Source: Zwartia hollandica
Lineage (GTDB): Bacteria > Pseudomonadota > Gammaproteobacteria > Burkholderiales > Burkholderiaceae_B
Direction: 5' to 3'
NCBI RefSeq assembly: GCF_019923725.1
Contig: NZ_JAHXRI010000006.1
Location: 434,001 to 498,000, forward strand
DNA length: 64,000 bases
The position numbers and the translations under genes were made by a program. Below are positions 7,654 through 53,612 of this stretch, in pieces (the stretch's first letter is position 1; the number at the start of each line of letters is the position of its first letter). A model generated the notes under the pieces. The model was given only the letters and a program-made list of their open reading frames with translations, had not been told where the DNA came from and did not search any database.

Positions 7654-7733
7654 TTACGGTCAGATTTAGCCAAAAAGCCGTCAAATTTCGGCGAAAATGC
7701 CGCTTGTTGTCATTTTGTCCTGAGAATGAAGTC
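7654..7733. other. 80-base spacer before ugd
   Basis: The base composition shifts to A+T-rich here. CGGC/GCCG short inverted repeats lie in the middle, followed by a T-rich stretch. This could be a weak terminator for the Wzm/Wzt unit and the start of a new transcription unit, but I find no promoter with both a good -35 and a good -10 box. Confidence 0.25.
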
Positions 7734-9086: not shown

Positions 9087-9089
9087 ATC

Positions 9090-14678: not shown

Positions 14679-14685
14679 GAGCTTG

Positions 14686-14689
14686 CTCC
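14686..14689 (-). promoter_or_regulatory. Ribosome-binding site fixing the TTG start of rfbC
   Basis: GGAG on the minus strand, seven bases before TTG 14678. It supports a rare TTG initiation codon for rfbC, since the protein has no upstream or nearby ATG in frame. Confidence 0.6.
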
Positions 14690-14703
14690 AGGTGAAAACT
14701 ACA

Positions 14704-15588: not shown

Positions 15589-15665
15589 CGTGATTTGTTA
15601 GTGACTTAAATTATAGGCTCTTGGAAGGAAACAAAAGTAATTCCGCTAAATCTTCTTTATATAAA

Positions 15666-16427: not shown

Positions 16428-17358
16428 TCTTGCCGTCGTTTTCATCGTTTTTAATCGGCCTCGCCATACAAAGGAGTCGTTTCAGTGTATTCGCGCGCAA
16501 AAACCTAGAAAGCTCTTTGTCATTGCAGATGGGCCTAGAAAAGATAGCCTTGATGATTGGCAAAAGTGTTTGGCTGTTCGAGAGATCGTAGAGGGAATTG
16601 ATTGGCCTTGCGAAGTTCATCGTAACTACGCAACAGAAAATATGGGCCTAAAAAAACGTATATCTAGCGGCTTAAATTGGGTTTTTGAGCAGGTTGAGGA
16701 AGCGGTTATTCTTGAAGATGACTGTGTGCCTCATCCCGATTTTTTCTGGTACTGCGAGGACTTGCTCGAGCGCTATAAAAATGATCCTCGAGTTTGGGTG
16801 ATCACGGGAAATAATTTTCAACATGGGCATCAACGCGGTGATGCCTCCTATTATTTTTCAAAGTTTGGGCATTGCTGGGGATGGGCTACTTGGCGACGTG
16901 CTTGGCAGCATTTCGACGGCGCAATTTCATTTTGGCCAGGCTGGAAAGGATCATCAGATTGGAATAAAAAAATGCCCGATCCTTTGGAGCGTAAATATTG
17001 GATCGAAATTTTGGATCGCGTTTATGCGGGTAGGATTGATTCTTGGGGATATCCGTGGCTGGCGACCCTGTGGTTTCACGGTGCGTTAACGGCTATCCCA
17101 CAGGTTAATTTGGTCACAAATATTGGGGTAGGGCCGGATGGTACCCATACTGTCGCGCTAGAGGATGAACCAGGAATTCCGGCAAAGCCACTGGGGCTGC
17201 TGACTCATCCAGTTGAAGTAAAGCAGAATGTTGTTGCCGATCAGTATTTTTTTGATCATGACCTCGGAGGCTTAAACCAGAAGTTTCCCCGCAAGTACTT
17301 GGTATTTCCAAAGCGAGTACTAAACAAGCTAATAAGGCTGTTGAAGGGGCAAGCTTGA
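16420..17358 (+). CDS. GT-A type glycosyltransferase-like protein, HlpA-like family, copy 1
   Basis: 312 residues. It begins with VVFIVFNRPRHTKES, carries ADGPR at 36-40, a GT-A style EDD (99-101) in ILEDDCVPHPDFF, and HCWGWATWRRAW (151-162). This family is often labelled HlpA-like or sugar transferase in polysaccharide loci. Fold and EDD motif suggest a nucleotide-sugar transferase; donor and acceptor are unknown. Two close paralogues lie at 23114 and 29912. The start overlaps the preceding stop by 8 bases, and the end overlaps the next gene by 4. Confidence 0.82.
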   Translation: MSDLAVVFIVFNRPRHTKESFQCIRAQKPRKLFVIADGPRKDSLDDWQKCLAVREIVEGIDWPCEVHRNYATENMGLKKRISSGLNWVFEQVEEAVILEDDCVPHPDFFWYCEDLLERYKNDPRVWVITGNNFQHGHQRGDASYYFSKFGHCWGWATWRRAWQHFDGAISFWPGWKGSSDWNKKMPDPLERKYWIEILDRVYAGRIDSWGYPWLATLWFHGALTAIPQVNLVTNIGVGPDGTHTVALEDEPGIPAKPLGLLTHPVEVKQNVVADQYFFDHDLGGLNQKFPRKYLVFPKRVLNKLIRLLKGQA

Positions 17359-18185
17359 TACCTAAACAGGCTGTTGTCGTGCCCCTTTATAAGCCGTCGT
17401 TAACCGCAACTGAGCGGTTTTCGCTGGAGCGGACGATTGCCTTACTGTCTCAGCACGACATTTTTATAGTGGGACCGGAACGACTTAAGCCCTTTTTTTT
17501 CACTTTACAACAGCGATACCCAGGGAGCTTGAAGACCCAACTATTTGCGGATCATTTTTTTATGGGTGTTGCAGGCTACAACAAACTATTGATCTCTGAG
17601 CGTTTTTATGCTGTGTTCGAGGAGTATGAGTATTTATTAGTGGCACAAACGGATACGCTAGTTTTGAGGGATGATCTTTCAGCTTGGTGCGAGAAAGGCT
17701 ATTCCTATATCGGCGCTCCGATGTTTAAGGGATTTACAACTCCGCAACAACCTCTTAACTTGCTTTGTGTTGGTAATGGTGGTTTCTCGTTGCGTAAGGT
17801 CGCGGATTTTCTAAAGGTACTTCGACGGCCATATTTCTTTAGAAACAAACTCATGGATGACTGGCCTGGTCAGTGGTGGTCTACCGCTTACAGATACCTT
17901 AAAGACTATTGGTGTTATTCGTATAAGAACACCCAGATCAATGTTGCCGTAAACGAGGACCTTTTTTGGGGATTATTTGTTTCAGCACGATGCGATTATT
18001 TTTTGGTACCTGATCTTGATGAAGCGCTTAAATTTTCGTTTGAAACAGAGCCGGAATATCTATATGCAAGGAACCATAACCAACTGCCCTTTGGTTGCCA
18101 CGCATGGGAACGCTACGGCCTAAGTTTCTGGGAGCGGGTTTTACCTGAACATCAGATTGATATTTCTCCCATAAAATCTAAATAG
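17355..18185 (+). CDS. DUF5672-type GT-like protein
   Basis: 276 residues starting at TTG 17355 (MIPKQAVVVPLYKP), with a TTGA overlap on the upstream stop and no closer in-frame ATG. Features are YEYLLVAQTDTLVL near residue 93, where QTDT resembles a GT-A DxD, then YIGAPMFKG and NGGFSLRKV. These are hallmarks of the DUF5672 family found among O-antigen glycosyltransferases. Probably a transferase; sugar unknown. Confidence 0.8.
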   Translation: MIPKQAVVVPLYKPSLTATERFSLERTIALLSQHDIFIVGPERLKPFFFTLQQRYPGSLKTQLFADHFFMGVAGYNKLLISERFYAVFEEYEYLLVAQTDTLVLRDDLSAWCEKGYSYIGAPMFKGFTTPQQPLNLLCVGNGGFSLRKVADFLKVLRRPYFFRNKLMDDWPGQWWSTAYRYLKDYWCYSYKNTQINVAVNEDLFWGLFVSARCDYFLVPDLDEALKFSFETEPEYLYARNHNQLPFGCHAWERYGLSFWERVLPEHQIDISPIKSK

Positions 18186-18328
18186 ATCAATAACTTAACT
18201 AATATACTGCTCAAAATATTTAACATTGGGCGTGGTATGATTGACTCCGTTTAGCCGAACATCTTGGCGGCAAAGAGGCGATTGAGATTTCTCCAGGGTT
18301 TAGCCTTTATAACGAGTCAAAATATATA
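18186..18328. other. 143-base A+T-rich spacer with an open frame leading into the next gene
   Basis: A TATACT hexamer at 18203-18208 could be a -10 box, but no -35 box is seen. From 18245 the frame is open through to GTG 18329, with no ATG, GTG or TTG in between. The 28 codons read like real protein (LAEHLGGKEAIEISPGF within them). This may be a remnant of another gene's end or an unrecognised N-terminal extension. Confidence 0.35.
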
Positions 18329-19444
18329 GTGTTTTTTGTCATTCCTCATATAGCTCTCGCCGCCGCGGGGTTTGCATCATTGGTTATTTGTTTAGCCATT
18401 GTTTGGACGGCGCGCTGGCATGGTGCACACACACTTGACTCTAGTGCTGGCGTCCAGAAGGTACACCATACCCCTACCCCACGCATTGGTGGGGTAGCAA
18501 TTTTGATTGGCTGCTGGATTGGCTGGTATTTTGCCCCGCCAGAGATATCTGTAATGCTAGGGCCCATCATGGTTGCGGCCACGCCGGCATTTGTGGCGGG
18601 AGCCGTTGAGGACACGCTAAAACGAGGCCGAGTCACCGAAAGATTAATTGCGACCTTCGCCAGTGGTGTTTTGGCGTGGTGGTTAACCGGCGACAGTTTG
18701 ACCCGTGTTGGTATTGGGGGTGTGGATTGGCTTTTAACGATTACGCCTGTGTCGGTGCTATTCACGGCATTCGCTGTTGGCGGCGTTGCGAACGCAATCA
18801 ACATTATTGATGGACTTAATGGATTAGCTGCCAGTACTGTGCTGGTGTGTTTGTCTGGCCTGGGAATGTTAGCGTTCCTTAATGGCGATGCCGAGATGGC
18901 CAAGATTAGTTTTATTTTAGGCGGTGCGACTCTGGGTTTTCTTCTAGTTAACTATCCTTCAGGAAAGATTTTCCTCGGCGATGGAGGCGCATACTTACTG
19001 GGGTTTCTTTTGGGCTGGGTGGCAGTGATGGTTGCAATGCGAAATCCAGCCATGTCTCCTTGGGCACCGCTGCTAGCGTGTGGTTATCCGATTTTAGAGG
19101 TGTTGTTTTCGATGGCACGTCGCACAGCCCGCACTTTAAAACTAGGGCACCCGGACAGGCTGCATTTGCACAGCCTTGTTTGGTCGCGTATTGCTCGTAA
19201 GTGGTTAGTAGGGGCTTCAGGTTTACGACAGAACTCTAGCGTTATGCCGATGATGCTCGCGTATGCCTGCATCCCGGTTGTACTGTCGATCTGGTTTCGA
19301 AAAAATACGATAGGGTTAATGTTCGCTTTTATCGCTTGCGCCTTCCTTTATGCTTTCATCTACGCGCGGCTAATACACTTTCGTTGGACCATGCCCAAGC
19401 TTCGTCTCACAAGCCGTGATACGAAGAGGCGTAGTGATCGCTAG
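18329..19444 (+). CDS. WecA/MraY-type undecaprenyl-phosphate sugar-1-phosphate transferase
   Basis: 371 residues, about ten membrane segments, GTG start. It carries the family landmarks KVHHTPTPRIGGVAI near residue 46, NAINIIDGLNGLAAS (metal/catalytic aspartate) near 155, FLGDGGAYLLG near 215 and the HPDRLHLHSLV loop near 275. Members start lipid-linked glycans by moving HexNAc-1-phosphate to undecaprenyl phosphate. The sequence is of the WecA/WbpL side of the family rather than MraY. It is one of two initiating transferases here (the other is at 43122), so it probably belongs to a separate glycan or acts on a different N-acetylated sugar. Confidence 0.92.
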   Translation: MFFVIPHIALAAAGFASLVICLAIVWTARWHGAHTLDSSAGVQKVHHTPTPRIGGVAILIGCWIGWYFAPPEISVMLGPIMVAATPAFVAGAVEDTLKRGRVTERLIATFASGVLAWWLTGDSLTRVGIGGVDWLLTITPVSVLFTAFAVGGVANAINIIDGLNGLAASTVLVCLSGLGMLAFLNGDAEMAKISFILGGATLGFLLVNYPSGKIFLGDGGAYLLGFLLGWVAVMVAMRNPAMSPWAPLLACGYPILEVLFSMARRTARTLKLGHPDRLHLHSLVWSRIARKWLVGASGLRQNSSVMPMMLAYACIPVVLSIWFRKNTIGLMFAFIACAFLYAFIYARLIHFRWTMPKLRLTSRDTKRRSDR

Positions 19445-19457
19445 CGGATACAAAAAT

Positions 19458-20285
19458 ATGTCGACTGTTTTTTTTAATGAGCTTATTAAACAGTGTATTG
19501 AGCAGAAGCGCCCGATGTCCTTCGGCAAGTTGGGCGCTGTCGAAACGGACTGTATCGCAAACAGTTTTGCAAATAACCAAGTTATTTGGGGAGACAATTT
19601 AGGCATCAACGCAGGGGTTTTCCCGTTGACGCAAAAAATCGTTGGCAAATGGATAAAGGAATACATCGACGCTATTCGCACGCTAGATGGATGTGTTGAA
19701 TGGTGGCACGGCAAAGATACCGATTTACTCAACAAATACAATCCGACACGATTTATATCTAGAGAAATAGATGACTTATTGCCATTTCATCTTGGGTCGG
19801 ATGCTTGGCATTATCAGCTAGCGGACAAAACGGTGTTGGTTGTCCACCCAATGGTTGACTCAATTCAAGCTCAGGCGGATCGCTTTTCGTCCATCTGGCC
19901 AGGGGCGGCAATAAAGAAATTGATTTGTATTCGGTCCTATTATCCGCCATGGGTAATGGCAGCGCACCCTTACAAAACCTATTTTGATTGCCTAGCGGCT
20001 ATAAAAAAACAAATTGCCAAGCAGCATTTTGATTTTGCGGTTGTGGGTGCTGGTGCCTTTTCACTGCCACTATTGCGCTTTATTAAACAAATGGGTCTCC
20101 CATGTGTACATTTGGGGGGGCAAACCCAATTACTATTTGGGATACGTGGCCTGAGATGGGAAACTGAGTATTCCGAGTTATGGCGGCAGGCAAATTTTTA
20201 TAACAACTCTTCTTTTTGGATAAAGCCACTACCCACAGACGTACCAGACAACAAAGCTTTAGTTGAGAATGGATGTTACTGGTAG
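19458..20285 (+). CDS. Unknown protein, possible GT-D-like transferase
   Basis: 275 residues from ATG 19458 ([13 protein letters not shown]); a GTG at 19416 inside the preceding gene is less likely. There is no signal peptide or membrane segment. The [13 protein letters not shown] stretch near residue 21 and the closing [12 protein letters not shown], then [12 protein letters not shown], resemble proteins with a GT-D fold. I cannot confirm that family by eye. It sits between the WecA-like and fucose synthase genes, with a 12-base 3' extent past the preceding intergenic boundary and only 8 bases before the next start. Confidence 0.6.
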
Positions 20286-20288
20286 GAG
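20283..20288 (+). promoter_or_regulatory. Ribosome-binding site of fcl
   Basis: TAGGAG spaced five bases before ATG 20294. It overlaps the last codons of the preceding gene and decides between two in-frame ATG codons of fcl. Confidence 0.6.
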
Positions 20289-20293
20289 TAGAA

Positions 20294-21277
20294 ATGGTGA
20301 AAAATACGTATATGCCTAAAATTTACGTCGCAGGTCACCGAGGGATGGTTGGCTCGGCCATCGTGCGCCAACTCATTGCGCAAGGACATCAACCCACTCA
20401 AATCGTCGGCCGTACCCATGCCGAACTCGACTTAACCGATCAGGCTGCAGTAAGAGCATTTTTTGCCTCAGAGAAGCCTGATCAAGTCTATCTGGCAGCC
20501 GCGAGAGTTGGTGGTATTCATGCCAACAACACATACCCTGCAGAATTTATTTATGACAATTTGATGGTTCAGGCCAATGTTATTGATGCTGCGTTTCGCC
20601 AGGGTGTTAAGAAATTGCTGTTTCTAGGCAGTAGTTGCATATATCCTAAGCTTGCACCACAGCCGATGTCTGAGAATGCCCTGTTAACAGGGTTTTTAGA
20701 GCCGACGAATGAGCCGTACGCCGTAGCAAAAATTGCGGGCATCAAGATTTGTGAAAGCTATAACCGACAGTATGGCAAGGAGCATGGAGTTGACTACCGC
20801 TCTGTGATGCCGACTAATCTATATGGCCCCGGGGATAACTACCATCCAGAAAATTCTCATGTTATCCCGGCACTGATTAGGCGCTTTCACGAAGCGAAAG
20901 CCTCCAATGCAAAATCGGTTTCAATTTGGGGATCTGGAAAGCCTTATCGCGAGTTTCTATTCGTCGATGACATGGCTGCTGCAAGTGTCTATGTGATGAA
21001 TTTAGAAAAAGGGGTCTATGAGCAGTACACGACGCCCATGCAGAGTCACATTAATGTGGGATATGGATCAGACATTACGATTGCACAATTAGCGCAAACG
21101 ATCGGCGCAGTTGTTGGCTATTCAGGGGAGATTGTGTTTGATTCCACAAAGCCCGATGGCGCACCGCGCAAGCTGATGGACAGCACGTTGCTGAAGAATT
21201 TAGGCTGGCAGGCGCAAGTAGGCATTCAGGATGGATTGAAACAGGCCTATGCAGATTTCTTAAACCACTATCGCTAA
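20294..21277 (+). CDS. fcl: GDP-L-fucose synthase
   Basis: 327 residues; NADPH-dependent 3,5-epimerase/4-reductase turning GDP-4-keto-6-deoxymannose into GDP-L-fucose. The Rossmann motif GHRGMVG is at 14-20, SSCIYP at 113-118, and the catalytic Y142/K146 sits in [14 protein letters not shown] 20294 was chosen because a TAGGAG ribosome-binding site precedes it by five bases. ATG 20312 would also retain the fold. Its usual partner gmd is absent from the window. The fucosyltransferase at 53613 is a plausible consumer. Confidence 0.94.
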
Positions 21278-21286
21278 GGCATAAAC

Positions 21287-23110
21287 GTGAGTATTGTTTC
21301 GGGCGTACTTGAGCCTTTCAAAAGGCTCTATGAAATATTGCCTGTCACAAGTAAGCGCGGCCTTACGCTTGTAGTGATCCTTAGCCTAGTAGCGTCCCTC
21401 TTTGAAACAGCCAGCGTAGCCTCTATCCTGCCTTTCATGGCAATTGTGATGGATCCCAGCATACTGACTGAATATCGGTGGGCAGAGGAGTTGCTGGCCT
21501 CCTTGGGCCTTCACACGCAACAAGCTGCGATTATCGCGGCAGGCGTGCTGACCGTATTGGTATTGGGGATTGGTAATGTGGTCACTGCAGCCAACCTATG
21601 GCTACAAACTCGTTACCTCGCATCGGCTAGACGTGACTTGGCGACCGAGTTATTTACGGGTTACCTTTATTTACCTTATTCATTTCACATACAGCGTGAC
21701 ACTAGCTCTCTTGGACGAGTATTAGGAGGTGACGTTGAGTCAGCAATTGGAGGTTTTTTAGCATCACTTCTAAGCGTTATATCAAAGGGTTTGAGTGGAA
21801 TAGTCCTTATTACATTGATCGTCGTTGTAGATCCCCTAGTTGCGTTGGGCACGGTCTTGGTTTTAGGCTGCGGATACATGTTGGTTTACCGATTGATTCG
21901 TATCAAGCAGGTGACCCTCGGCGCAAAAATGGTGCAGGCGAGTACGACTGTTGGACGTACAGCTCTAGAAGGACTCTCTGGAATTAAAGAATTGCGGGTG
22001 CTGGGACGAGAGAATGCGTCGACAGTCGAATACAACAAGTCCATGACTGAGTTGATGGCAACACAAGCATCTAATTCGCTAGCCTCAGCAATGCCGCGGT
22101 ATGTAATTGAAGTGTTTGCCTATGCAGGGATTGTAGCTGTGACGCTAGCCTTTGTACTTAAGGGTGAAGGTACCGCAGCGATACCCTCTTTGGCCCTTTA
22201 TGCGCTTGCTGGAAATCGTTTGGTGCCGATCTTTCAACAGCTGTTCGCGGCAGCGATCACCATCAAATATCACACAAGGGCAGTTGAGTCACTCGAAGCC
22301 GATTTAGCAATCGTTCGCAACAGACAGACGGACACAGACGAAAATCAGATTGGTGCTCTAGCATTTAAGACACAAATTCAACTCACTGGTTTGAGTTTCA
22401 AATACCCCAGTGCTGATCGTTTAGCCTTGAACAACATCACACTCACAATTCCTCAGAATCAAAGTATCGGTTTGGTAGGTAAGACCGGGTCTGGGAAGAC
22501 GACGCTAGCCGATGTTTTGCTTGGTTTGTATTCCCCAGCTAGCGGCGAAATCAAGATTGATGGCGTTCCGTTAAATAGTCAAAATGAGCGAGCGTGGCGA
22601 AAGCGTGTCGGATACGTGCCCCAAACGGTATTTTTGACAAATGCATCTATTGAAAAAAATATCGCGCTAGGCATGGCAGAGGAACAGATTGATATTGAAG
22701 CGGTAAAGCGTGCGGCGAGAATGGCACAGGCCGAAGAATTCATTAACCAATTACCTGATGGATACGGCACCATCGTGGGCGAGCGAGGTGTGAAGCTATC
22801 AGGAGGGCAGCGACAGCGACTAGGTATTGCAAGGGCGCTGTATCACAACCCGGATGTGCTGGTTTTTGATGAAGCAACCAGCGCACTTGATGGAATGACT
22901 GAAGACGCGGTGATGCAAGCAGTGCAGGACTTAAGTCAGGAGCGCACGATGATCTTAATCGCCCACAGATTGCGCACAGTGCAAGCGTGCGACCGTATCG
23001 TCATGTTAGACAGTGGCGTGATTGTTGCTGATGGAACTTACGAGGAGCTCGTGAGCACATCCGAGCCGTTTCAGCGGCTTGCAGGTAATGGGCTGAGGGA
23101 AGTGCAATAA
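21287..23110 (+). CDS. PglK-type ABC flippase, copy 1
   Basis: 607 residues, GTG start. The membrane domain (residues ~1-330) has about six segments. The nucleotide-binding domain has Walker A GKTGSGKTT near residue 400, the signature LSGGQRQRLGIARAL near 504 and Walker B VLVFDEATSALD. The closest known type is PglK of Campylobacter, which flips whole lipid-linked oligosaccharides by ATP hydrolysis. No MATE-like Wzx is in the window, so PglK-type proteins probably take that role. A paralogue lies at 58463. Confidence 0.88.
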   Translation: MSIVSGVLEPFKRLYEILPVTSKRGLTLVVILSLVASLFETASVASILPFMAIVMDPSILTEYRWAEELLASLGLHTQQAAIIAAGVLTVLVLGIGNVVTAANLWLQTRYLASARRDLATELFTGYLYLPYSFHIQRDTSSLGRVLGGDVESAIGGFLASLLSVISKGLSGIVLITLIVVVDPLVALGTVLVLGCGYMLVYRLIRIKQVTLGAKMVQASTTVGRTALEGLSGIKELRVLGRENASTVEYNKSMTELMATQASNSLASAMPRYVIEVFAYAGIVAVTLAFVLKGEGTAAIPSLALYALAGNRLVPIFQQLFAAAITIKYHTRAVESLEADLAIVRNRQTDTDENQIGALAFKTQIQLTGLSFKYPSADRLALNNITLTIPQNQSIGLVGKTGSGKTTLADVLLGLYSPASGEIKIDGVPLNSQNERAWRKRVGYVPQTVFLTNASIEKNIALGMAEEQIDIEAVKRAARMAQAEEFINQLPDGYGTIVGERGVKLSGGQRQRLGIARALYHNPDVLVFDEATSALDGMTEDAVMQAVQDLSQERTMILIAHRLRTVQACDRIVMLDSGVIVADGTYEELVSTSEPFQRLAGNGLREVQ

Positions 23111-23113
23111 ACA

Positions 23114-24079
23114 ATGATAGGTACTCCGATCGCCTTCATTATTTTTAATCGCCCGCGGCATACACGCCAAAGTTTTGCGCTTATTCGCGAGCAAAGGCCG
23201 AGTAAATTATTAATTATTGCGGATGGACCTCGATTGGGACATCCAACAGATGGCGAACGGTGCCGTGAGACACGCGAGATTGTTGAAAACATCGATTGGC
23301 CCTGTGAAGTTTTGAGAAACTATGCGGACATTAACTTAGGCTGTAAAAATCGTGTTAGCTCTGGACTTGACTGGGTATTTACCCAAGTGGACAAAGCGAT
23401 AATTATTGAAGACGATTGTCTGCCAAACAAAGATTTTTTCTCTTTCTGCGATGAGCTCCTAGTCCGCTATGAAAACGACCCTCGGGTTTGGGTTGTGACT
23501 GGGAACAATTTTCAAAATGGTGTGCGGCGTGGAGATGCCGCTTATTACTTTTCGAAGTTTAATCACTGTTGGGGTTGGGCAAGCTGGCGACGAGCTTGGC
23601 AGCACTATCGTGTTGACATTCCATTTTGGCCTGCCTGGAAAGACACTGAAGACTGGCATACAAAGCTACCCGATCCCGTTGAACGTAAGATTTGGTCCAA
23701 GTTGCTCGATGATGTGCAGCGTGGTGGTATCGACACTTGGGATTATCAGTGGACCGCCACGACTTGGTACTTTGGGGGGTTGACAGCCACACCGCAAGTA
23801 AATTTAGTCACGAATATCGGGATCGGCCCAGATGCGACGCATACGGTAGCGTCGGAAGAGCAAGCAGGGCTCCCTGCGCTATCGCTTGGACCACTAACGC
23901 ATCCGCGAGTTGTTAAACAGGATCTTGCTGCAGATCGATACGTTTTAAATCACAATTTTGGTGGAAGGGATCATCCCGACCGTTTGCATAATCGACTCGT
24001 TAAGCGGTGGTCTCAACTTTTACGGTCTCCAAAGTGGCTCGCAAAGAAGCTTAAACAGTATCTTCCCCTAAGGTTCTGA
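23114..24079 (+). CDS. GT-A type glycosyltransferase-like protein, HlpA-like family, copy 2
   Basis: 321 residues; paralogue of 16420 and 29912. It repeats the landmarks IAFIIFNRPRHTRQS, IADGPR, IIEDDCLPNKDFF, HCWGWASWRRAWQHY and, near the end, NLVTNIGIGPDATHT. Similarity to copy 1 runs along the whole length and is higher than to copy 3. It lies three bases after the flippase gene and one base before asnB, so it is co-transcribed with them. Reaction unknown. Confidence 0.82.
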   Translation: MIGTPIAFIIFNRPRHTRQSFALIREQRPSKLLIIADGPRLGHPTDGERCRETREIVENIDWPCEVLRNYADINLGCKNRVSSGLDWVFTQVDKAIIIEDDCLPNKDFFSFCDELLVRYENDPRVWVVTGNNFQNGVRRGDAAYYFSKFNHCWGWASWRRAWQHYRVDIPFWPAWKDTEDWHTKLPDPVERKIWSKLLDDVQRGGIDTWDYQWTATTWYFGGLTATPQVNLVTNIGIGPDATHTVASEEQAGLPALSLGPLTHPRVVKQDLAADRYVLNHNFGGRDHPDRLHNRLVKRWSQLLRSPKWLAKKLKQYLPLRF

Positions 24080-43731: not shown

Positions 43732-44862
43732 TCAAGACTTTCGCCAGACCCTACGGTTGACAAAGTCTGTGTAGCTTTGAATGATACGTACGACCTTGTC
43801 CGATACATTATCTGGTGCGTAATCATGCACCAGATGCAGACCGCGACTATCACCGCGCGGCTGATCGGCAAGAATGGCTAGCCCTTGTTCAACTCGTTCG
43901 ATACTCATTCCAACCATCATCACCGCTGCTTGCTCAAATCCTTCAGGCCTTTCGTGTACTTCGCGAAGATTCAATGCAGGAAAATTCAAGATTGAAGACT
44001 CTTCGGTAATCGTCCCACTGTCTGACAACACCGCACGAGCCTCAACTTGCAGCTTAACGTAATCAGTGAAACCAAACGGCTTTTCAAATCTGACTAAGGG
44101 GTCTGCAACCAAGCCTGCATCAACGATACGCTTTTTTGTTCGCGGATGCGTCGAGACAAGTATAGGTTGTCCATGCGTACGCACTAGATGATCTAGTAGA
44201 TCGAAGAGCTTTTGTAACTGAGTCGGCGAGTCTACGTTTTCTTCACGGTGGGCACTCAACACAAAATATTGATTTTTCTTTAAACCCAGAGTGCCCAAGA
44301 TCTCCGACTCATCGATGTGTTTGCGATAGAACTCGATGACCTCACGCATAGGACTGCCAGTTTTGATCACCTGGTCTGAGGGTAAGCCCTCTCGTAACAA
44401 GTATTCACGGGCGATTTCACTGTAGGTCAAATTAATATCGGAGATGTGGTCGACGATGCGGCGATTGATCTCTTCAGGCACCCGAAAATCAAAACAGCGA
44501 TTACCGGCTTCCATATGAAAAATCGGTACTTTACGGCGCTTCGCAGAAATAGCTGACAAGGCGCTATTGGTATCGCCCAACAGCAAAAGAGCCTCGGGTT
44601 GATATCTTGCGATCATCTCATCGGCTGCGATAATGATCTGACCAATTGTTTGTGCGGCAGTTTCGCCTGCAGCTCCCATGAAGGCATCAGGCTTACGGAT
44701 CCCGAGATCGCTGAAAAAGATCTCATTTAGTTCGTAATCGTAGTTTTGCCCCGTATGTATCAATACATGATCGCAGAACTGATCCAACTTATTAATCGTA
44801 CGGGATAGCCGGATAATTTCCGGCCGAGTCCCGACAATAGTCATGACTTTGAGTTTACGCAT
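43732..44862 (-). CDS. fnlC: UDP-HexNAc 2-epimerase of the FnlC/WbjD type
   Basis: 376 residues of the non-hydrolysing 2-epimerase family: MTIVGTRPEIIRLSRT near residues 7-22, then LIHTGQNYD, LLLGDTNSAL, HMEAGNRCFD, SAHREENV and SDSGTITEE. It has the WbjD/CapG features (RPEIIRLS and HTGQNYDYELNEIFF) rather than those of the WecB housekeeping enzyme. It acts third in the L-FucNAc or L-QuiNAc pathway. Its start overlaps the stop of the fnlA-like gene by 8 bases. Confidence 0.9.
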   Translation of the reverse strand: MRKLKVMTIVGTRPEIIRLSRTINKLDQFCDHVLIHTGQNYDYELNEIFFSDLGIRKPDAFMGAAGETAAQTIGQIIIAADEMIARYQPEALLLLGDTNSALSAISAKRRKVPIFHMEAGNRCFDFRVPEEINRRIVDHISDINLTYSEIAREYLLREGLPSDQVIKTGSPMREVIEFYRKHIDESEILGTLGLKKNQYFVLSAHREENVDSPTQLQKLFDLLDHLVRTHGQPILVSTHPRTKKRIVDAGLVADPLVRFEKPFGFTDYVKLQVEARAVLSDSGTITEESSILNFPALNLREVHERPEGFEQAAVMMVGMSIERVEQGLAILADQPRGDSRGLHLVHDYAPDNVSDKVVRIIQSYTDFVNRRVWRKS

Positions 44863-45865
44863 TGAGCGCCTCGCGAATCACATCGAGGCTCAAGAGAACC
44901 TCTTTCACTTGATCAACTGTAAGTCGTCGCGTGTTGTGTGAAGTGTAATCGTCAAAATTAGCAATTTGCATTTCGCCGTTTACGAAGTACTTGTCGTAAT
45001 TTAAATCGCGCGCGTCTGCAGGAATGCGGTAGTAATTACCCAGATCTTCCGCGCGTGCCATTTCTTCACGCGAAACAAGAGATTCATATAGTTTCTCGCC
45101 GTGGCGGGTCCCAATTACTTTGACTTCACTTTTACCGACAAAAAGTGAGGTCATCGCTTGGGCTAGGTCACCAATCGTAGAGGCCGGTGCTTTTTGAACA
45201 AAAATATCGCCAGGCCTAGCGTGCCCGAACGCATATAAAACCAGATCGACCGATTCTTCAAGTGACATTAAAAAACGCGTCATATTGGGATCGGTGACAG
45301 TGAGCGCCTTACCTTGTTGCAGTTGTTCCAGGAAAAGGGGGATGACAGACCCTCGGGAGGCCATGACGTTGCCATATCGAGTGGCAGATAAGACGGTTTT
45401 GTTGGGGTCGCACAGCCGGGATTTGGCGACCATGACTTTTTCCATCATGGCCTTGGAAATACCCATAGCGTTGATGGGATAAACGGCCTTATCGGTGCTA
45501 AGCAGGACACAGCGGCTGACCGATTGCGCGATCGCCGCGCGCATGACGTTTTCGGCACCCAGCACGTTGGTGCGAACAGCTTCCATCGGGTAAAACTCAC
45601 AAGATGGCACTTGCTTTAGTGCTGCTGCATGAAACACAAAGTCAACGCCGTGCAGAGCGTCATGCACGCTGTCGTATTCGCGTACATCGCCGATATAAAA
45701 CTTAAGTTTGTCGCTATTATGCTTAAGCCGCATATCTTCTTGCTTTTTCTCGTCTCGACTAAAGACGCGAATTTCAGCCAGCTCAGAGTCAAGCAACCTG
45801 GTTAACACTGTATTGCCAAACGAGCCAGTTCCGCCAGTAATCAAAAGGACTTTGTTTTTTAGCAT
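44855..45865 (-). CDS. fnlA: UDP-GlcNAc 4,6-dehydratase/5-epimerase, FnlA/WbjB type
   Basis: 336 residues. GGTGSFGN is at 11-18, and STDKAVYPINAMGISK carries S123, M134 and K138 as catalytic set in the FlaA1/CapE manner. ATKQVPSCE-type AALKQVPSCE and RYGNVMASRGSVIP are family landmarks. It converts UDP-GlcNAc to the L-arabino 4-keto-6-deoxy intermediate. I chose ATG 45865 (MLKNKVLLITGG); a GTG two codons earlier is equally usable. It heads the reductase and 2-epimerase steps on the same strand. Confidence 0.92.
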   Translation of the reverse strand: MLKNKVLLITGGTGSFGNTVLTRLLDSELAEIRVFSRDEKKQEDMRLKHNSDKLKFYIGDVREYDSVHDALHGVDFVFHAAALKQVPSCEFYPMEAVRTNVLGAENVMRAAIAQSVSRCVLLSTDKAVYPINAMGISKAMMEKVMVAKSRLCDPNKTVLSATRYGNVMASRGSVIPLFLEQLQQGKALTVTDPNMTRFLMSLEESVDLVLYAFGHARPGDIFVQKAPASTIGDLAQAMTSLFVGKSEVKVIGTRHGEKLYESLVSREEMARAEDLGNYYRIPADARDLNYDKYFVNGEMQIANFDDYTSHNTRRLTVDQVKEVLLSLDVIREALNA

Positions 45866-45885
45866 TTTCACTACTCACAAGAAGT

Positions 45886-46758
45886 CTATCTATAAGCGTG
45901 CATCTGTCGGATAAGCTCAGGCCATGTCGCAGGTTTATATCCAGTAGCGAGTTTAAAGCGCGCCGAAGTTAAAGCCCGATTAATTGTCAGATTATCATCT
46001 GGCACAATCGCAATAGACTTGTTATAGACATCGGCGACAAGCTTAAGCAGCTCGTATTTATTAATTGGTGAGGCTGAAACATGATAAGTGCCATGCAACG
46101 TTGAGTTCGGAATCACAAAGTCCCTAATAACTCTTGCTAGCTCAACCGTCGGTAATCCCGAGAAAACCGCTTTTCGGTAGCCCTTCACTTCGCCTGTCTG
46201 AGACAAGAACCAATCAACTAGGCCATGATGACTGTTGATTTCGTGTCCAATGATCGAAGTTCTTAGCGTGATCGCATTGTCGTAATCGACCTCGCCCAGC
46301 AGTTTGCTGCGGCCGTACAGGTCTTGGGCATCCGGCAAATCTTGCTCTGTATACATTCCTTTTGCACCACTAAATACGCAGTCTGTGCTGACATGAATAA
46401 GCCGAGCGTTAACTTGTTTGCAGTGCCTGGCCAGTTGGTGTGGTAACAGGGCGTTGATTTTGATTGCCGCGATCGCATCGTTGGCCTCGGCAAGTTGTTT
46501 GACCAAACCAACGCAATTGACAACAACGTTGGGCCGGATGCGTGACAATAGTTCAGTCACGCTTGATTCGTTTTCTACGTTAATATCTTGTATAAGATTC
46601 TGTTGTAGCTTAGCGGGTAACAGCTCAGATAGGCTCAACGATCGGCAGGTGCCATACGTCACATAGTTTTCGCTGGTACTAAAAAAGCGATACAAAGCAT
46701 TACCTAGCATGCCAGAAGCGCCAAGAATCAAAATCCTAATTTGTGGCGTGGTTTTCAA
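45886..46758 (-). CDS. RmlD-like NDP-sugar reductase (WbvR-like)
   Basis: 290 residues: GASGMLG (13-19), STDCVFSG starting near 124, and catalytic Y148/K152 in YGRSK. It resembles dTDP-4-dehydrorhamnose reductase. Its position between a WbuB-like transferase and fnlA marks it as the 4-reductase of this UDP-sugar pathway. FnlB/WbjC/CapF proteins of the L-FucNAc route are ~370 residues because they add a cupin 3-epimerase domain. That domain is missing here, so the WbvR-type reaction giving UDP-L-RhaNAc, then L-QuiNAc, is more likely. It overlaps the upstream gene by four bases. Confidence 0.82.
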   Translation of the reverse strand: MKTTPQIRILILGASGMLGNALYRFFSTSENYVTYGTCRSLSLSELLPAKLQQNLIQDINVENESSVTELLSRIRPNVVVNCVGLVKQLAEANDAIAAIKINALLPHQLARHCKQVNARLIHVSTDCVFSGAKGMYTEQDLPDAQDLYGRSKLLGEVDYDNAITLRTSIIGHEINSHHGLVDWFLSQTGEVKGYRKAVFSGLPTVELARVIRDFVIPNSTLHGTYHVSASPINKYELLKLVADVYNKSIAIVPDDNLTINRALTSARFKLATGYKPATWPELIRQMHAYR

Positions 46759-49024: not shown

Positions 49025-49147
49025 TCCCAGATTGTATTTCAGAATGAATGCCTTACCCAGAGTCCGCGCATGGCGCTATGCCTAATATAATGTTGAACGC
49101 AATGCTGAATGCGCCTAAAGACGCTGCAAAACCTTGGGATATTCCGG
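49025..49147. promoter_or_regulatory. Divergent intergenic region with candidate promoter for the heptose unit
   Basis: A perfect TATAAT is at 49086-49091 on the plus strand, with a start site expected near 49098, about 50 bases before ATG 49148. No good -35 box lies 16-18 bases upstream, so an activator or another site may be needed. On the minus strand TACAAT (49031-49036) is a possible -10, but it lies almost at the start codon. Assignment is tentative. Confidence 0.4.
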
Positions 49148-50116
49148 ATGTCGATTCTAATTACAGGCGTGGCAGGATTTATTGGTTGTAACTTGGCTAA
49201 ACGACTCATGAACGAGGGACATATTGTCGTTGGTGTGGATAATTTAAGTCGAGGCACTCTGCGGAATCTGTCTGAAGTCAAAAATGCGGCAAACTTTCAT
49301 TTTATAGAGACTGATTGTGCCGATAGACCACGTTTTTTAGCCGAGACTGCTACTTTTCATGAGAGATTCCCTATTACAGAGGTCTGGCATCTAGCGGCTA
49401 ATTCTGACATCCCAGCGGGGGTTAGTGACGCAACTGTTGATCTAAAAGACACCTTTATGACGACCTTTAACGTACTAGAAGTCATGAAAGCGTTAGACAT
49501 CAAGGTGCTGGCGTTTGCGTCAAGCTCGGCCGTGTATGGTGATCACGGCGATCGAAGCATTTCAGAAGTCTCCGGTCCGCTGTTGCCGCTGTCGAATTAC
49601 GGGGCAATGAAGCTGGCTTCAGAGGCTTCAATTAGTGCGGCTGCCGAGAGCTTCTTAAATAAGGCATTTATTTATAGATTTCCGAATGTAATTGGTGTGC
49701 CGGCCACGCATGGGGTATTACTGGACTTTGTGAACAAGCTCAAAGCTAACCCAAGCCGGTTAGACGTTCTGGGTGATGGCACGCAACAAAAAGCATATCT
49801 TCACGTGGATGACTTGATTGAAGGGATGTTAGAAATTCAAAGTAATGCCAGTGAAAAACTAGCCGTGTACAACTTAGGGGCTGAAGATGAGGGGGTTTCG
49901 GTTCGTAATATCGCCGAAGCGGTTGTTGCTAGTGTGTCCCCCAATGCAGATATTGTTTATGGAGTTGAAAAGCGCGGTTGGGTTGGCGACGTTCCTAAGT
50001 TTCAATATTGTCTTGATAAGTTGAAGAAGTTGGGTTGGACTCCTAAGCTAGACTCAAAGGCGGCTATAAAAAGAGCGATAGCCGACATTGTCGAACAAGA
50101 GATCACCCTTAAATGA
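49148..50116 (+). CDS. NAD-dependent NDP-sugar epimerase/dehydratase
   Basis: 322 residues from ATG 49148 (MSILITGVAGFIGCNLAKRL). The frame extends to 49109, but that would add 13 residues before the Rossmann strand. GVAGFIG is at 7-13, FASSSAVYGDH is the serine motif, and SNYGAMKLASE carries Tyr-x3-Lys. GalE-like. At the head of a GDP-heptose operon it may act on GDP-D-glycero-D-manno-heptose (epimerisation or 4,6-dehydration), or it may be a UDP-hexose 4-epimerase. The substrate cannot be read from the sequence. ATGA overlap with the next gene. Confidence 0.85.
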   Translation: MSILITGVAGFIGCNLAKRLMNEGHIVVGVDNLSRGTLRNLSEVKNAANFHFIETDCADRPRFLAETATFHERFPITEVWHLAANSDIPAGVSDATVDLKDTFMTTFNVLEVMKALDIKVLAFASSSAVYGDHGDRSISEVSGPLLPLSNYGAMKLASEASISAAAESFLNKAFIYRFPNVIGVPATHGVLLDFVNKLKANPSRLDVLGDGTQQKAYLHVDDLIEGMLEIQSNASEKLAVYNLGAEDEGVSVRNIAEAVVASVSPNADIVYGVEKRGWVGDVPKFQYCLDKLKKLGWTPKLDSKAAIKRAIADIVEQEITLK

Positions 50117-52038
50117 GGCAAGTTGTCATTCTGGCTGGTGGTAAGGGGACGCGTCTAAAAGAGAGATTAGGCGACTTACCCAAGCCCCTCATCGATGTCT
50201 CTGGTACCCCACTGCTCGAGCATCAGATTTTGTTGGTAAAGCGTTATGGTTTTGACCGAATTTTGATTCTCGTCAATCATAAAGCGCAGCAAATTGTTGA
50301 TTTTTGTGAGAGCAGAGGCAACTGGGGTATTACGGTCCAATGTATTGATGACCAAGTGCCGCTTGGCACTGCGGGTGCAGTGCTAAACGTATTTGATCTA
50401 CTGGAAGAGCAGTTCTTGGTTATGTACGGTGACACCATGCTCGAAGTAGATTTAAATCGTTTTTGTAAGGCGCATGAGCGGTTACCGGCAACGGGTGCTA
50501 CGCTTTTTCTTCATCCAAATGATCATCCCCAAGACTCTGATTTGGTCGAAATGGCTGAGTCTGGTGCAATTACCCAATTCCACCCCTATCCACACAAAGC
50601 TGACAGGTACTATCCTAATCTAGTGAATGCAGCGCTCTATTGTTTAAGCAAAGCGGCGCTGATCGCCTATCGACGTGACAGCAAGACCCAACTTGATTTT
50701 GGTAAGCAACTGTTTCCGCAGATGATTCGTGACGGAGTGGTGTTACGAGGCTATAACAGCCCCGAATACATCAAAGATTGCGGAACTCCTGACCGCATCG
50801 ACAAGGTTAGGGCCGACTTTATTAGCGGGAAAATAGTTAAAGCATCATTGGTCAACAAGCAATCAGCCATTTTTCTCGATCGAGATGGCACGCTGCTTGA
50901 AGAGGTTGATCACCTTAAGGCTGTTGACCAAGTCCGGCTCCTTGATGGCGCTGCACAAGCGATACGTCGTTTTAACCGCAAAGGCTATAAGACCTGTCTC
51001 GTCACAAATCAACCCGTCATCGCTCGGGGAGAGTGCACTTTTGACGACCTCACTGAAATCCATCGTAAGTTAGAAACGTTGCTTGGCCGTGAGGCTGCTT
51101 ATTTAGATCGGATTTATTACTGTCCGCACCATCCTGATAAAGGCTTTGTTGGAGAAAGGGCCGATTTGAAGATTGCCTGCCAGTGTCGAAAACCGAACAC
51201 TGGAATGATCGATCAGGCTGCGATAGATTTGAATATTGATCGCGGACAGTCTTGGATGATTGGTGACACCTCGACAGACGTTGCAACGGCAAAACGCGCA
51301 GGCTTGAAGTCAATACTGGTTGAAACTGGGTATGCTGGGAAAGATTACAAATACCCTGTCGTTGCCGATTTTATTGCTCCCGATCTTGAAACTGCGGCGG
51401 CCTTGATACTCGACGTCTACCCTCTTGTCTTAGAAAAATATGCTGCTGATCTAACCGGAATTGAACCGGGCGGACTCGTTTTTATTGGGGGACAAGCGCG
51501 TAGCGGGAAAAGCACCTTTGCCAACATTTTAAAGTACGCCTTGCTAGGGATGGGGCGCCAGTGTCATGTGCTCTCGACTGATCGCTGGATATTGTCTGAG
51601 ACCGAGCGCTCTTCTGGCGTGCTTGGACGACACGCCATGACTTCGCTTAACCAGTGCCTAGCCGAACTTGACTTGAGAGGCGAGCAACCGCTCACCTTAT
51701 CATTGCCTGTCTATTTGAAACACACCCGCCAACAGCAGAAAGACGCAGAGAGCCTTTTCATTAAGCGGGATGACATCGTAATTATCGAGGGTGTAGCAGC
51801 TTTAGCAACGGATACGGCAAAGCATGCTGCTCGGCGTTTTTATGTCGAAATCGAAGAAGAAGAGCGCCGCAATCGGATTCTTACTGAATATATACGACGC
51901 GGTTATGCTCCGGAGGCCGCAAATTCAATTTACCGTGAGCGCCTGCTAGATGAAGTTCCCACAATAGATGGTCTTAAGCTAGACGCCACCAAGGTTAAAC
52001 TACCCTTGAAGACTCCGCAGAATATTACTCACACATGA
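50113..52038 (+). CDS. Three-domain fusion: HddC-like guanylyltransferase, GmhB-like phosphatase, P-loop kinase
   Basis: 641 residues. Domain 1 (1-235) is a sugar-phosphate nucleotidyltransferase (ILAGGKGTRLKERLGDLPKPL). Domain 2 (250-440) is a HAD phosphatase of GmhB type with D256-R-D258-G-T, TNQPVIARG, a CPHHPD...CQCRKPNTGM zinc site and MIGDTSTDV. Domain 3 (455-641) is a P-loop kinase with Walker A GQARSGKST (460-468) and VIIEGVAALA, uridine-kinase-like. Domains 1 and 2 are the last two steps to GDP-D-glycero-alpha-D-manno-heptose. The third has no place in the known pathway. There is no internal stop or frameshift, and it overlaps genes on both sides by four bases. Confidence 0.9.
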   Translation: MRQVVILAGGKGTRLKERLGDLPKPLIDVSGTPLLEHQILLVKRYGFDRILILVNHKAQQIVDFCESRGNWGITVQCIDDQVPLGTAGAVLNVFDLLEEQFLVMYGDTMLEVDLNRFCKAHERLPATGATLFLHPNDHPQDSDLVEMAESGAITQFHPYPHKADRYYPNLVNAALYCLSKAALIAYRRDSKTQLDFGKQLFPQMIRDGVVLRGYNSPEYIKDCGTPDRIDKVRADFISGKIVKASLVNKQSAIFLDRDGTLLEEVDHLKAVDQVRLLDGAAQAIRRFNRKGYKTCLVTNQPVIARGECTFDDLTEIHRKLETLLGREAAYLDRIYYCPHHPDKGFVGERADLKIACQCRKPNTGMIDQAAIDLNIDRGQSWMIGDTSTDVATAKRAGLKSILVETGYAGKDYKYPVVADFIAPDLETAAALILDVYPLVLEKYAADLTGIEPGGLVFIGGQARSGKSTFANILKYALLGMGRQCHVLSTDRWILSETERSSGVLGRHAMTSLNQCLAELDLRGEQPLTLSLPVYLKHTRQQQKDAESLFIKRDDIVIIEGVAALATDTAKHAARRFYVEIEEEERRNRILTEYIRRGYAPEAANSIYRERLLDEVPTIDGLKLDATKVKLPLKTPQNITHT

Positions 52039-53018
52039 TTATTAGTCGAACACCCCTAAGAATGAGCCTAGTGGGCGGCGGCAGTGACCTACCCGCGTTC
52101 TATCAGCGCGAAGAAATCGGTGCGGTTGTCAGCTCGGCTATCGATAAGTATATCTATGTCACCGTGAACAAGAAATTCGATGATGGCATTAGAGTTGGCT
52201 ATTCGATTAACGAAGAAGTAAATACTGTTGCCGATATTAAACACCCGCTTGTTAAAGCCGGTATGCAATATTTAGGGTTGAAGGGTGGCATTGAGATCAC
52301 AACGATTGCTGATATTCCGTCTAAAGGCACTGGGCTTGGATCATCAAGTTCTTTCACTGTTGGCTTACTGCACGCCTTAAATGCTTATATGGGTAAGTAC
52401 AGTTCTGCCGAAGTGCTTGGCAGAGACGCTTGCCACATCGAAATTGATCTTTGTAAAGAGCCCATCGGTAAACAAGACCAGTATGCCGCTGCTTACGGCG
52501 GGTTTAACTTAATTGAATTTAGGCCTGACGAATCTGTAATCGTATCGCCATTGATCTGCAAGGCGTCTACCCTACAGTCACTGCAGTCAAGCTTATTGAT
52601 GTTTTACACTGGCACCACTCGTAACGCGGCTAGCATCTTAAAAGAACAGTCAGAATCACTTGCTCACAATCAAAGCAAACTAGACGCACTCAGAAGGATG
52701 GTGCGACTCGCCTACAATCTAAGAGATGAACTTCAGGCGAATAATCTGGATGCGTTCGGAGAGATTTTGCATGAAAACTGGATGCTCAAAAAAGGTCTTG
52801 TTACCAATATTAGTAGTCAAGCGATTGATCAGTGGTATGACATCGCTTTAAAGGCCGGAGCCAAAGGCGGCAAGATTCTAGGTGCGGGTGCTGGCGGATT
52901 TTTGTTGTTGTTTGCGCCACCCGAGAGGCATGACGCTATCAAGAAGGCGCTATCAAACCTAAGAGCCATACCGATAGGGCTTGATCCTCTTGGCAGCAGG
53001 ATAATTTTTTATACATAA
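52035..53018 (+). CDS. hddA: D-glycero-alpha-D-manno-heptose 7-phosphate kinase (GHMP family)
   Basis: 327 residues. RTPLRMSLVGGGSDLPAFY is the N-terminal substrate motif of the HddA group. GTGLGSSSSFTVGLLHAL (about 97-114) is the GHMP phosphate-binding loop, and KILGAGAGGFLLLF closes the site. It phosphorylates heptose 7-phosphate at C1 in the alpha configuration, giving the bisphosphate for the GmhB-like domain of the preceding protein. ATGA overlap with that gene; 27 bases to the isomerase. Confidence 0.93.
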   Translation: MIISRTPLRMSLVGGGSDLPAFYQREEIGAVVSSAIDKYIYVTVNKKFDDGIRVGYSINEEVNTVADIKHPLVKAGMQYLGLKGGIEITTIADIPSKGTGLGSSSSFTVGLLHALNAYMGKYSSAEVLGRDACHIEIDLCKEPIGKQDQYAAAYGGFNLIEFRPDESVIVSPLICKASTLQSLQSSLLMFYTGTTRNAASILKEQSESLAHNQSKLDALRRMVRLAYNLRDELQANNLDAFGEILHENWMLKKGLVTNISSQAIDQWYDIALKAGAKGGKILGAGAGGFLLLFAPPERHDAIKKALSNLRAIPIGLDPLGSRIIFYT

Positions 53019-53045: not shown

Positions 53046-53612
53046 ATGGCGTTGGGTAAAGGTATTGCAAGCTTGTATCTAGATAAGCTGATACGGCTAC
53101 TGTCAGCCGTTGACCGTGAACAGATTGATCATGGCGTTCAAGTGGTCGCAGATGCATGGCTTGGGGGCAAACAAATTATTACCCTAGGTAATGGCGGCAG
53201 TTCGATGACGGCCTTACATTTTATTAACGACTGGAATAAAACGATTCCGATGCATACGCAACGCAGCTTTCGAGGGCGTTCGTTGGTCGACAACATTGGC
53301 CTAATGATGAGCTATGCAAACGATCTTTCTTTTGAGGATATTTTCGTCGGGCAGCTAAAAAATATTTTGCAGCCGGGCGATCTGGTATTGGCAATATCTG
53401 GAAGTGGAAACTCAGAGAACGTTATTCGAGCTGTCGAGTATGCGAACCAAAACGGCGCAGTTACTCTGGGCTTGTGTGGCTACAGTGGCGGAAAATTAAA
53501 GCAAGCTGCGCAACACGTTGTTTGGGCTGAAATCGATGACATGCAGCTAGCAGAAGATTTTCACTTTATGTTTGGGCACATGGTGATGCAACGTTTAGCT
53601 GGGTATTGCTAG
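53046..53612 (+). CDS. gmhA: Sedoheptulose 7-phosphate isomerase (SIS domain)
   Basis: 188-residue SIS protein with ITLGNGGSSMTALHF (about 41-55) and LAISGSGNSENVI near 110. AEDFHFMFGHMVMQ in the C-terminal helix corresponds to the metal-binding His region of GmhA. It makes D-glycero-D-manno-heptose 7-phosphate for the kinase encoded just upstream. Some active-site positions differ from E. coli GmhA (for example ALHFINDW where QHFAAEL is usual). This is probably a variant dedicated to the GDP-heptose route. Its stop shares the palindrome TAGCTA with the convergent gene. Confidence 0.87.
   Translation: MALGKGIASLYLDKLIRLLSAVDREQIDHGVQVVADAWLGGKQIITLGNGGSSMTALHFINDWNKTIPMHTQRSFRGRSLVDNIGLMMSYANDLSFEDIFVGQLKNILQPGDLVLAISGSGNSENVIRAVEYANQNGAVTLGLCGYSGGKLKQAAQHVVWAEIDDMQLAEDFHFMFGHMVMQRLAGYC

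Follow-up and report, generated by a model that had tools for sequence, protein, structure and literature searches.

Why should a protein that appears to complete the synthesis of an activated heptose carry a third domain with an ATP-binding loop? The question is raised by one gene in a 64,000-nucleotide stretch of the Zwartia hollandica genome (contig NZ_JAHXRI010000006.1, positions 434,001 to 498,000; hereafter the window, in which coordinates are counted). It encodes nucleotidyltransferase (NTase), haloacid dehalogenase (HAD) phosphatase and P-loop parts in one polypeptide and lies among relatives of the enzymes of GDP-heptose synthesis. The preliminary description of this DNA remarked that the known pathway has no use for a third, ATP-dependent domain, and an account of the four-step Campylobacter jejuni pathway agrees, as there the enzymes are separate and HddA, acting at C1, is the sole kinase (PMC10680097). 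Here we report that the fusion is real, conserved and no chance event, and that it recurs in several distantly related bacteria. We read the protein as an enzyme of heptose activation that bears an additional, predicted kinase of known fold, and the pathway may contain an undescribed step.

One open frame, three domains

The gene occupies positions 50113-52038 of the forward strand as a single intact frame of 641 amino acids (ATG at 50113, stop ending at 52038) with no internal stop, as had been described. It overlaps by 4 bp the frame of a short-chain dehydrogenase/reductase (SDR) upstream, which ends at 50116, and by 4 bp an HddA-like frame downstream, which starts at 52035. The three domains named earlier were recovered by Pfam and NCBIfam matches, by motifs and by fold (Table 1). 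The best PDB matches of the first domain are 6jq8 and 5xhw, titled 'putative 6-deoxy-D-mannoheptose pathway protein', and its GGxGTR signature (residues 9-14) is kept in 11 of the 12 full-length rows of our alignment, the exception being Nitrospirillum iridis. The D-x-D residues D256 and D258 of the HAD domain and its C-x-H...C-x-C zinc site (C337, H339, C356, C358) are kept in all 12. This second domain matches Pfam Hydrolase_like (residues 358-427, 64 bits), NCBIfam TIGR01656 (residues 252-402, 121.6 bits, over the cut-off of 84.15) and PDB 2gmw, a heptose bisphosphate phosphatase (E 1.3e-26).

The names HddC, GmhB, HddA and GmhA are given by best relative, as none of the proteins reaches the NCBIfam equivalog or TIGR00213 cut-off. 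The NTase domain scored 71 bits against the HddC equivalog NF049965 (cut-off 300) and the HAD domain fell below the GmhB cut-offs (TIGR00213, 111.5 versus 149.6 bits; PRK08942, residues 250-429, 145.5 versus 178 bits). The best NCBIfam match of the HddA-like protein, NF049969, gave 169 bits (cut-off 600), and its best PDB matches were 4usm and 4usk, titled 'putative sugar kinase', followed by 3k85 and 4n3o, titled heptose-phosphate kinases. At that level of resolution the earlier assignment of the flanking genes to GmhA and HddA, and of the locus to GDP-heptose synthesis, is supported. In related loci the protein is annotated 'HAD-IIIA family hydrolase'.

A divergent P-loop kinase fold predicted for domain 3

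Residues 453-641 gave only a weak Pfam match (AAA_18, 17.9 bits, below cut-off), a search of the PDB with the single sequence returned nothing significant (best E 0.39), and no curated profile that we ran names the domain. A profile built from five rows matched PDB entry 1rz3 (E 4.9e-14), human UCK1 (1.5e-9) and UCK2 (about 2e-9), together with phosphoribulokinase and pantothenate kinase and, more weakly, adenosine 5'-phosphosulfate (APS) kinase. AlphaFold2 modelling of the domain from five sequences (the window and related loci) gave five models with mean predicted local distance difference test (pLDDT) scores of 85.3 to 48.2. By Foldseek the domain model matched UCK2 (E 8.1e-10, template modelling (TM) scores 0.67/0.65), and the top TM-score among the 50 rows shown was that of 3c8u, an FrcK-type protein (0.76/0.74). 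The Walker A motif reported earlier is present, D490 pairs with the UCK1 aspartate in the profile alignment and the tyrosine of a P-x-Y motif is kept.

Family profiles place the domain at some distance from its named relatives. The window domain was not listed for PF00485 at the gathering threshold of 22 bits, nor was that of N. iridis; five of the six relatives scanned exceeded it. Against the APS_kinase profile the window domain scored 17.9 bits (cut-off 21.1), and two related loci scored 22.1 (L006) and 22.5 bits (L007) over the P-loop stretch only. Against the udk equivalog the score was 23.6 bits with a cut-off of 220.3. The D-H-P motif of Udk is absent from the window domain and from two new fusion loci (L045, L046) and present in 20 of the 24 remaining kinase loci from our phylum survey; fusion-type kinases share D-x-W. 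In a FastTree phylogeny of 41 rows (13 fusion-type kinases and 28 superfamily members, APS kinase being left out) the fusion-type kinases formed one clade with local support of 0.97. The profiles and models thus indicate that domain 3 is a divergent member of the phosphoribulokinase/uridine kinase/pantothenate kinase superfamily with a clade of its own. The uridine kinase likeness noted earlier holds for the superfamily fold and fails for uridine kinase proper, because the udk score is far below cut-off, D-H-P is absent and the clade is separate. Trees of the single domains were compared to see whether the fusion had been inherited as one unit, and the placement of one locus, L077, differed among them: the NTase and HAD trees and the 41-row kinase tree (0.99) kept it with the window genus, and a 12-row kinase tree put it beside the long Rhizobium branch (0.93).

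Conservation and selection

The alignment comprised 12 full-length rows and one partial row, giving 13 kinase rows that are not independent (four from the window genus, four Rhizobium or Rhizobium-like; about six lineages). Invariant in all 13 were G460, R463, G465, K466, S467, A470, L477, D490, W492, R499, R506, Y534, G560, G597, R610 and E614. Two positions of catalytic type vary, E559 being aspartate in four Rhizobium-like rows and R539 glutamine in N. iridis. Between window-genus orthologues the ratio of nonsynonymous to synonymous substitution rates (dN/dS) was 0.13-0.15 where computable for residues 453-620, and the NTase and HAD domains gave 0.05-0.07 and 0.07-0.08, respectively; most comparisons with L077 were saturated. 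Such constraint was not seen in the final 21 codons (621-641; values of 0.46-0.65, and one of 2.5 that rests on very few synonymous changes). The invariant kinase residues and the low dN/dS values argue that domain 3 is functional and under purifying selection, although less constrained than its two partners. An artefactual fusion by frameshift or assembly error is ruled out by the intact frame, the dN/dS values and the same three-domain frame in 12 full-length loci; no frameshift of the kind that the preliminary description had allowed for was found.

Distribution of the fusion

The three-domain protein was found in four of 32 genomes of the window genus, in a gammaproteobacterial metagenome-assembled genome (G332, the same as L009 and L013), in one further genome of the window's order (G1314) and one of its phylum (G1189), on the Methylovirgula plasmid pHY1, in N. 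iridis and on Rhizobium plasmids. Of 72,556 plasmid records, 54 match 80% or more of the protein at one place, and the top 54 rows of the listing comprise 53 Rhizobium and one Methylovirgula; two further Rhizobium records outside these carry the kinase part at the start of the record. A tblastn search of the plasmids with domain 3 alone returned 28 Rhizobium records plus Methylovirgula and overlooked roughly half of the Rhizobium copies already known; its negative result elsewhere is therefore weak.

Surveys with domain 3 scored 8 or 16 candidates per genome and may have passed over divergent copies; loci L011 and L012 coincide with G495 and G541. In the class sample 5 of 369 genomes matched: the window's own fusion and that of G332, a kinase frame in genome G065, one phosphoribulokinase-like and one pantothenate-kinase-like protein. 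The family sample gave 13 of 200 genomes, with four fusions and nine weak matches that were nearly all CysNC, the alphaproteobacterial sample 3 of 385, the sole fusion being that of Nitrospirillum, itself the centre of the search, and the phylum sample 27 of 398, with three fusions including the window's own. Candidates set aside were generic superfamily members named by eye (L040, FrcK-like; L041 and L004, phosphoribulokinase-like; L005, pantothenate-kinase-like) and the CysNC (APS kinase) matches: of the 12 loci with weak hits at family level, all but L027 carry CysN and/or CysC motifs. Searched alone (residues 1-441, E 1e-60), the NTase-HAD part was found in 2 of 339 class genomes, both three-domain, and hence gave no two-domain controls. 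No stand-alone intact orthologue of domain 3, with neighbours that might disclose the substrate, was found in the samples searched. A phage origin was discarded, as 50,697 phage records gave no match and 22 candidate stretches in viral contigs gave none that was confirmed.

The search with domain 3 alone and the list of carriers that the preliminary description had called for thus give fusions in about six lineages, with no sign in what was searched of a standard, described fusion partner. Nor did we find the fusion described in the open-licence literature of PubMed Central, as judged by titles and abstract openings.

Linkage to heptose genes

In 11 of the 12 full-length loci the SDR gene immediately precedes the fusion. 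The HddA-like gene follows immediately in 10 loci, lies upstream in Methylovirgula and is separated by about 18 kb in Nitrospirillum; 11 of the 12 loci contain both SDR and HddA, and 11 have GmhA within the stretch. Identity to the window partner ranged over 27-97% for GmhA, 43-87% for the SDR and 45-93% for HddA, which suggests that GmhA is the most exchangeable partner. Close relatives of the SDR (E up to 1e-50) occur in 59 plasmid records (55 Rhizobium, one Methylovirgula, three Lawsonia), a set that nearly equals the fusion-carrying set when the two are compared by totals rather than record by record. HddA relatives are spread more broadly (76 records; among the 60 listed, at least six Azospirillum and at least six Lawsonia). 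In four opened loci that lack the kinase domain (L078, L079, L080, L084) the annotations show no small-molecule P-loop kinase, uridine-kinase-like or otherwise, several genes there being hypothetical; L080 lists a CpsD/CapB tyrosine kinase.

On Rhizobium plasmids (L007, positions 2191-13662; also L008, L081, L103 and L075) the surroundings form a conserved cluster of genes for a GmhA-like protein, a family 2 glycosyltransferase, a 656-residue protein without Pfam match, an LPG_synthase_TM protein, the SDR, the fusion, the HddA-like kinase, a second SDR and a flavin adenine dinucleotide (GMC-type) oxidoreductase. It looks like a complete heptoside pathway, of which we found no description.

A putative kinase for the entry side of the pathway

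In the known last two steps of the pathway, domain 2 would remove the 7-phosphate of heptose-1,7-bisphosphate and domain 1 would couple heptose-1-phosphate to GTP. Domain 3, if an active ATP-dependent small-molecule kinase, would most probably act on the primary hydroxyl at C7, either of a heptose that bears no phosphate or of sedoheptulose. The product would re-enter the 7-phosphate pool used by GmhA and HddA, a salvage or repair entry that might, for example, recapture free heptose released by premature action of the fused phosphatase. Primary hydroxyls are the targets of the characterised superfamily members (uridine 5', pantothenate 4', ribulose-5-phosphate C1, glycerate C3), and it is for this reason that C7 is favoured; an aldoheptose has one primary hydroxyl, at C7, and sedoheptulose has them at C1 and C7. 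We infer the kinase activity, the sugar substrate, the C7 position and the side of entry alike, and a C7 kinase that feeds or repairs the pathway is a tentative choice, held with somewhat less than even confidence.

The invariant catalytic residues, the low dN/dS and the SDR and HddA genes present in 11 of the 12 loci speak for this reading. The entry side is preferred because of pathway economy and the case of Nitrospirillum. In N. iridis the GGxGTR signature of the NTase is replaced by GDTDHA with the HAD and kinase residues intact, and about 18 kb from the fusion lie an HddA-GmhA-like pair and a separate HddC-like NTase gene with an intact signature (NTP_transferase, 75 bits). The NTase part seems to have become redundant and decayed, with the phosphatase and kinase kept. 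In this one case the kinase therefore seems linked with the chemistry of sugar phosphates and not with nucleotide transfer. The same fusion gene adjoins a CRISPR-Cas9 locus (L014, positions 4380-10555; by eye, with a 1025-residue Cas9-like frame) and repeat-rich stretches.

Several observations weigh against a C7 kinase of free sugars. The invariant R499 and R506 lie outside the Walker A motif and the lid and would suit an anionic acceptor, a sugar phosphate or GDP-sugar, at least equally well, and the SDR linkage would better fit a step after GDP-heptose. We know of no free-heptose uptake system here; the Rhizobium clusters lie near carbohydrate ATP-binding cassette (ABC) transporter genes, with toxin-antitoxin genes between, which proves nothing on heptose uptake. 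In G065 (genome 88% complete), which has a GmhA-like match, no HddA match was found at 1e-10, and this relative of domain 3 may not serve the GDP-heptose pathway. The whole-protein model is weak (best pLDDT 71) and uninformative on domain arrangement. Finally, the substrate of FrcK, of the same superfamily, is not established in Sinorhizobium meliloti (PMC10433430).

The G065 gene itself looks broken: its kinase frame stands behind a HAD remnant (L003/L010; L010, positions 8476-12489), downstream of ABC-type export genes, recognised by eye, and glycosyltransferase-like pieces.

Other roles for domain 3

The two arginines, the SDR directly upstream and the near coincidence of plasmid SDR relatives with fusion carriers speak for the main rival, in which domain 3 acts on the exit side, placing a phosphate at C7 or elsewhere on GDP-heptose or on the form that the SDR has modified, the phosphoheptose then being transferred into a surface glycan. 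Such a scheme would have one polypeptide strip the C7 phosphate and then restore it, and no enzyme that uses such a donor was identified. Moreover, Nitrospirillum has the kinase with no SDR beside the fusion or in the HddA stretch, and Lawsonia plasmid 3 carries a relative of the SDR (38%) together with HAD-, SIS-, NTase- and GHMP-type genes and no kinase domain; the SDR therefore does not require the kinase. We regard an exit-side kinase as unlikely, if still a serious competitor. Its bolder form, a new clade of sugar-nucleotide kinases that phosphorylate GDP-heptose (or the SDR-epimerised form) before rather than after transfer into a surface polysaccharide, we also consider unlikely, and a shade more so.

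The Lawsonia cluster (L084, Lawsonia intracellularis plasmid 3, positions 6605-23172) encodes its own transaldolase, flanked by the HAD/SIS genes on one side and an LPG_synthase_TM gene on the other. This could be an added supply step for sedoheptulose-7-phosphate, and as such a precedent for an added precursor-supply step that speaks for the entry reading favoured above.

A nucleoside or nucleotide kinase of housekeeping salvage, tethered by chance or for GMP/GDP recycling, would agree with uridine kinases being some of the closest families profiled; at E 0.001 PF00485 finds no match in the window genome, so that the uridine kinase role looks vacant there. Yet the missing D-H-P motif, the udk score, the separate clade and the heptose locus of 11 of the 12 full-length cases (the exception being Nitrospirillum) make this improbable. 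More doubtful still is a regulatory or structural ATP-sensing domain without phosphotransfer: the faster evolution of domain 3 and the E559 substitution would be expected of it, but K466, D490 and the lid residues are invariant and the domain stayed intact in Nitrospirillum after the NTase motif was lost. HldE and FKP are kinase-NTase fusions that supply sugar-1-phosphates, and the preliminary description suggested that domain 3 might replace a kinase step, but with an HddA-like gene in almost every locus a substitute for HddA as C1 kinase is very improbable.

If a kinase step does exist, it could be one that is missing from a much-studied sugar-nucleotide pathway, and an unassigned P-loop kinase clade would be tied to heptose chemistry. 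GDP-heptose clusters would then be read differently, and the gain would be either an enzyme of heptose salvage or a GDP-sugar bearing an added phosphate; were GDP-heptose the acceptor, a nucleotide-activated phosphoheptose would be built into surface polysaccharide already phosphorylated. Relatives of Rhizobium leguminosarum and R. etli, which carry the fusion on plasmids, are tractable carriers.

Neighbouring genes and coordinates

The SDR matched PDB entry 8rdg best (E 1.9e-66). Its true start is probably 49148, as homologues align from residue 14. Its sequence has S-S-S...Y-x-x-x-K and lacks T-D-E, a motif of 4,6-dehydratases; a GalE-like epimerase is therefore more likely than a dehydratase.

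Table 1 Features of the fusion gene and its neighbours in the window
Feature	Position	Strand	Evidence
SDR, GalE-like NAD-dependent epimerase (by similarity)	49109..50116	+	Pfam Epimerase 149 bits; TIGR01179 galE 132 bits, below cut-off 262
Fusion residues 1-235, HddC-like sugar-1-phosphate nucleotidyltransferase, GGxGTR signature	50113..50817	+	Pfam NTP_transferase 4-229, 93 bits
Fusion residues 250-430, GmhB-like HAD phosphatase	50860..51402	+	TIGR01656, 2gmw match, HAD and zinc residues
Fusion residues 453-641, predicted divergent P-loop kinase domain, phosphoribulokinase/uridine kinase/pantothenate kinase superfamily	51469..52035	+	Profile search, AlphaFold2, Foldseek
Walker A, residues 459-467 (GGQARSGKS)	51487..51513	+	Sequence; G460, R463, G465, K466, S467 invariant in 13/13 kinase rows
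D490-R-W492, putative acceptor-site Asp and clade-specific Trp	51580..51588	+	D490, W492 invariant in 13/13 kinase rows
Lid segment R588...G597	51874..51903	+	G597 invariant in 13/13 kinase rows; R588 in 12/12 full-length rows
HddA-like GHMP kinase (heptose-7-phosphate 1-kinase)	52035..53018	+	NF049969, PDB matches
GmhA-like SIS isomerase (sedoheptulose-7-phosphate isomerase)	53046..53612	+	TIGR00441 84 bits, below cut-off 209

On the minus strand (43732-46758) the window has genes resembling a UDP-sugar 2-epimerase, a CapD/FnlA-like SDR and an RmlD/FnlB-like reductase, names that we take to suggest a 6-deoxy-amino sugar of the L-FucNAc type in the same glycan. A family 11 glycosyltransferase gene next door was dropped as a candidate user of GDP-heptose, as gmd is found immediately beyond the edge of the window. 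Elsewhere in the same genome (L099; G000:C20:34567-35475) a match to RfaE domain I, the HldE kinase, is over cut-off with one in-frame TGA reported, apparently indicating a separate ADP-heptose route.

Comparison with known systems

Relatives of all four enzymes of the C. jejuni heptose pathway are encoded in the window, but here the HddC- and GmhB-like parts share one polypeptide with a kinase domain, whereas in the C. jejuni account the enzymes are separate and no such kinase appears (PMC10680097). A two-domain HddC-GmhB protein of 428 residues on plasmid 1 of L. intracellularis N343 (L078), encoded beside a GHMP kinase, is 39% identical to the window protein over 418 residues; it has no kinase domain, and no SDR relative was found at E 1e-12 in its 18.6-kb stretch. 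With the PF00485 superfamily (uridine-cytidine kinase, phosphoribulokinase, type I pantothenate kinase) domain 3 shares the P-loop, acceptor aspartate, P-x-Y and lid, but the window domain itself does not reach the family cut-off, which five of the six relatives scanned exceed, and has D-x-W and no D-H-P motif. The FrcK-type 'fructose transport system kinase' (3c8u), highest in TM-score, differs in that FrcK is encoded apart from sugar-nucleotide enzymes. HldE and FKP likewise join a kinase and a nucleotidyltransferase in one chain, but their kinases are of the PfkB or GHMP type and act at C1, unlike the P-loop domain of the window protein.

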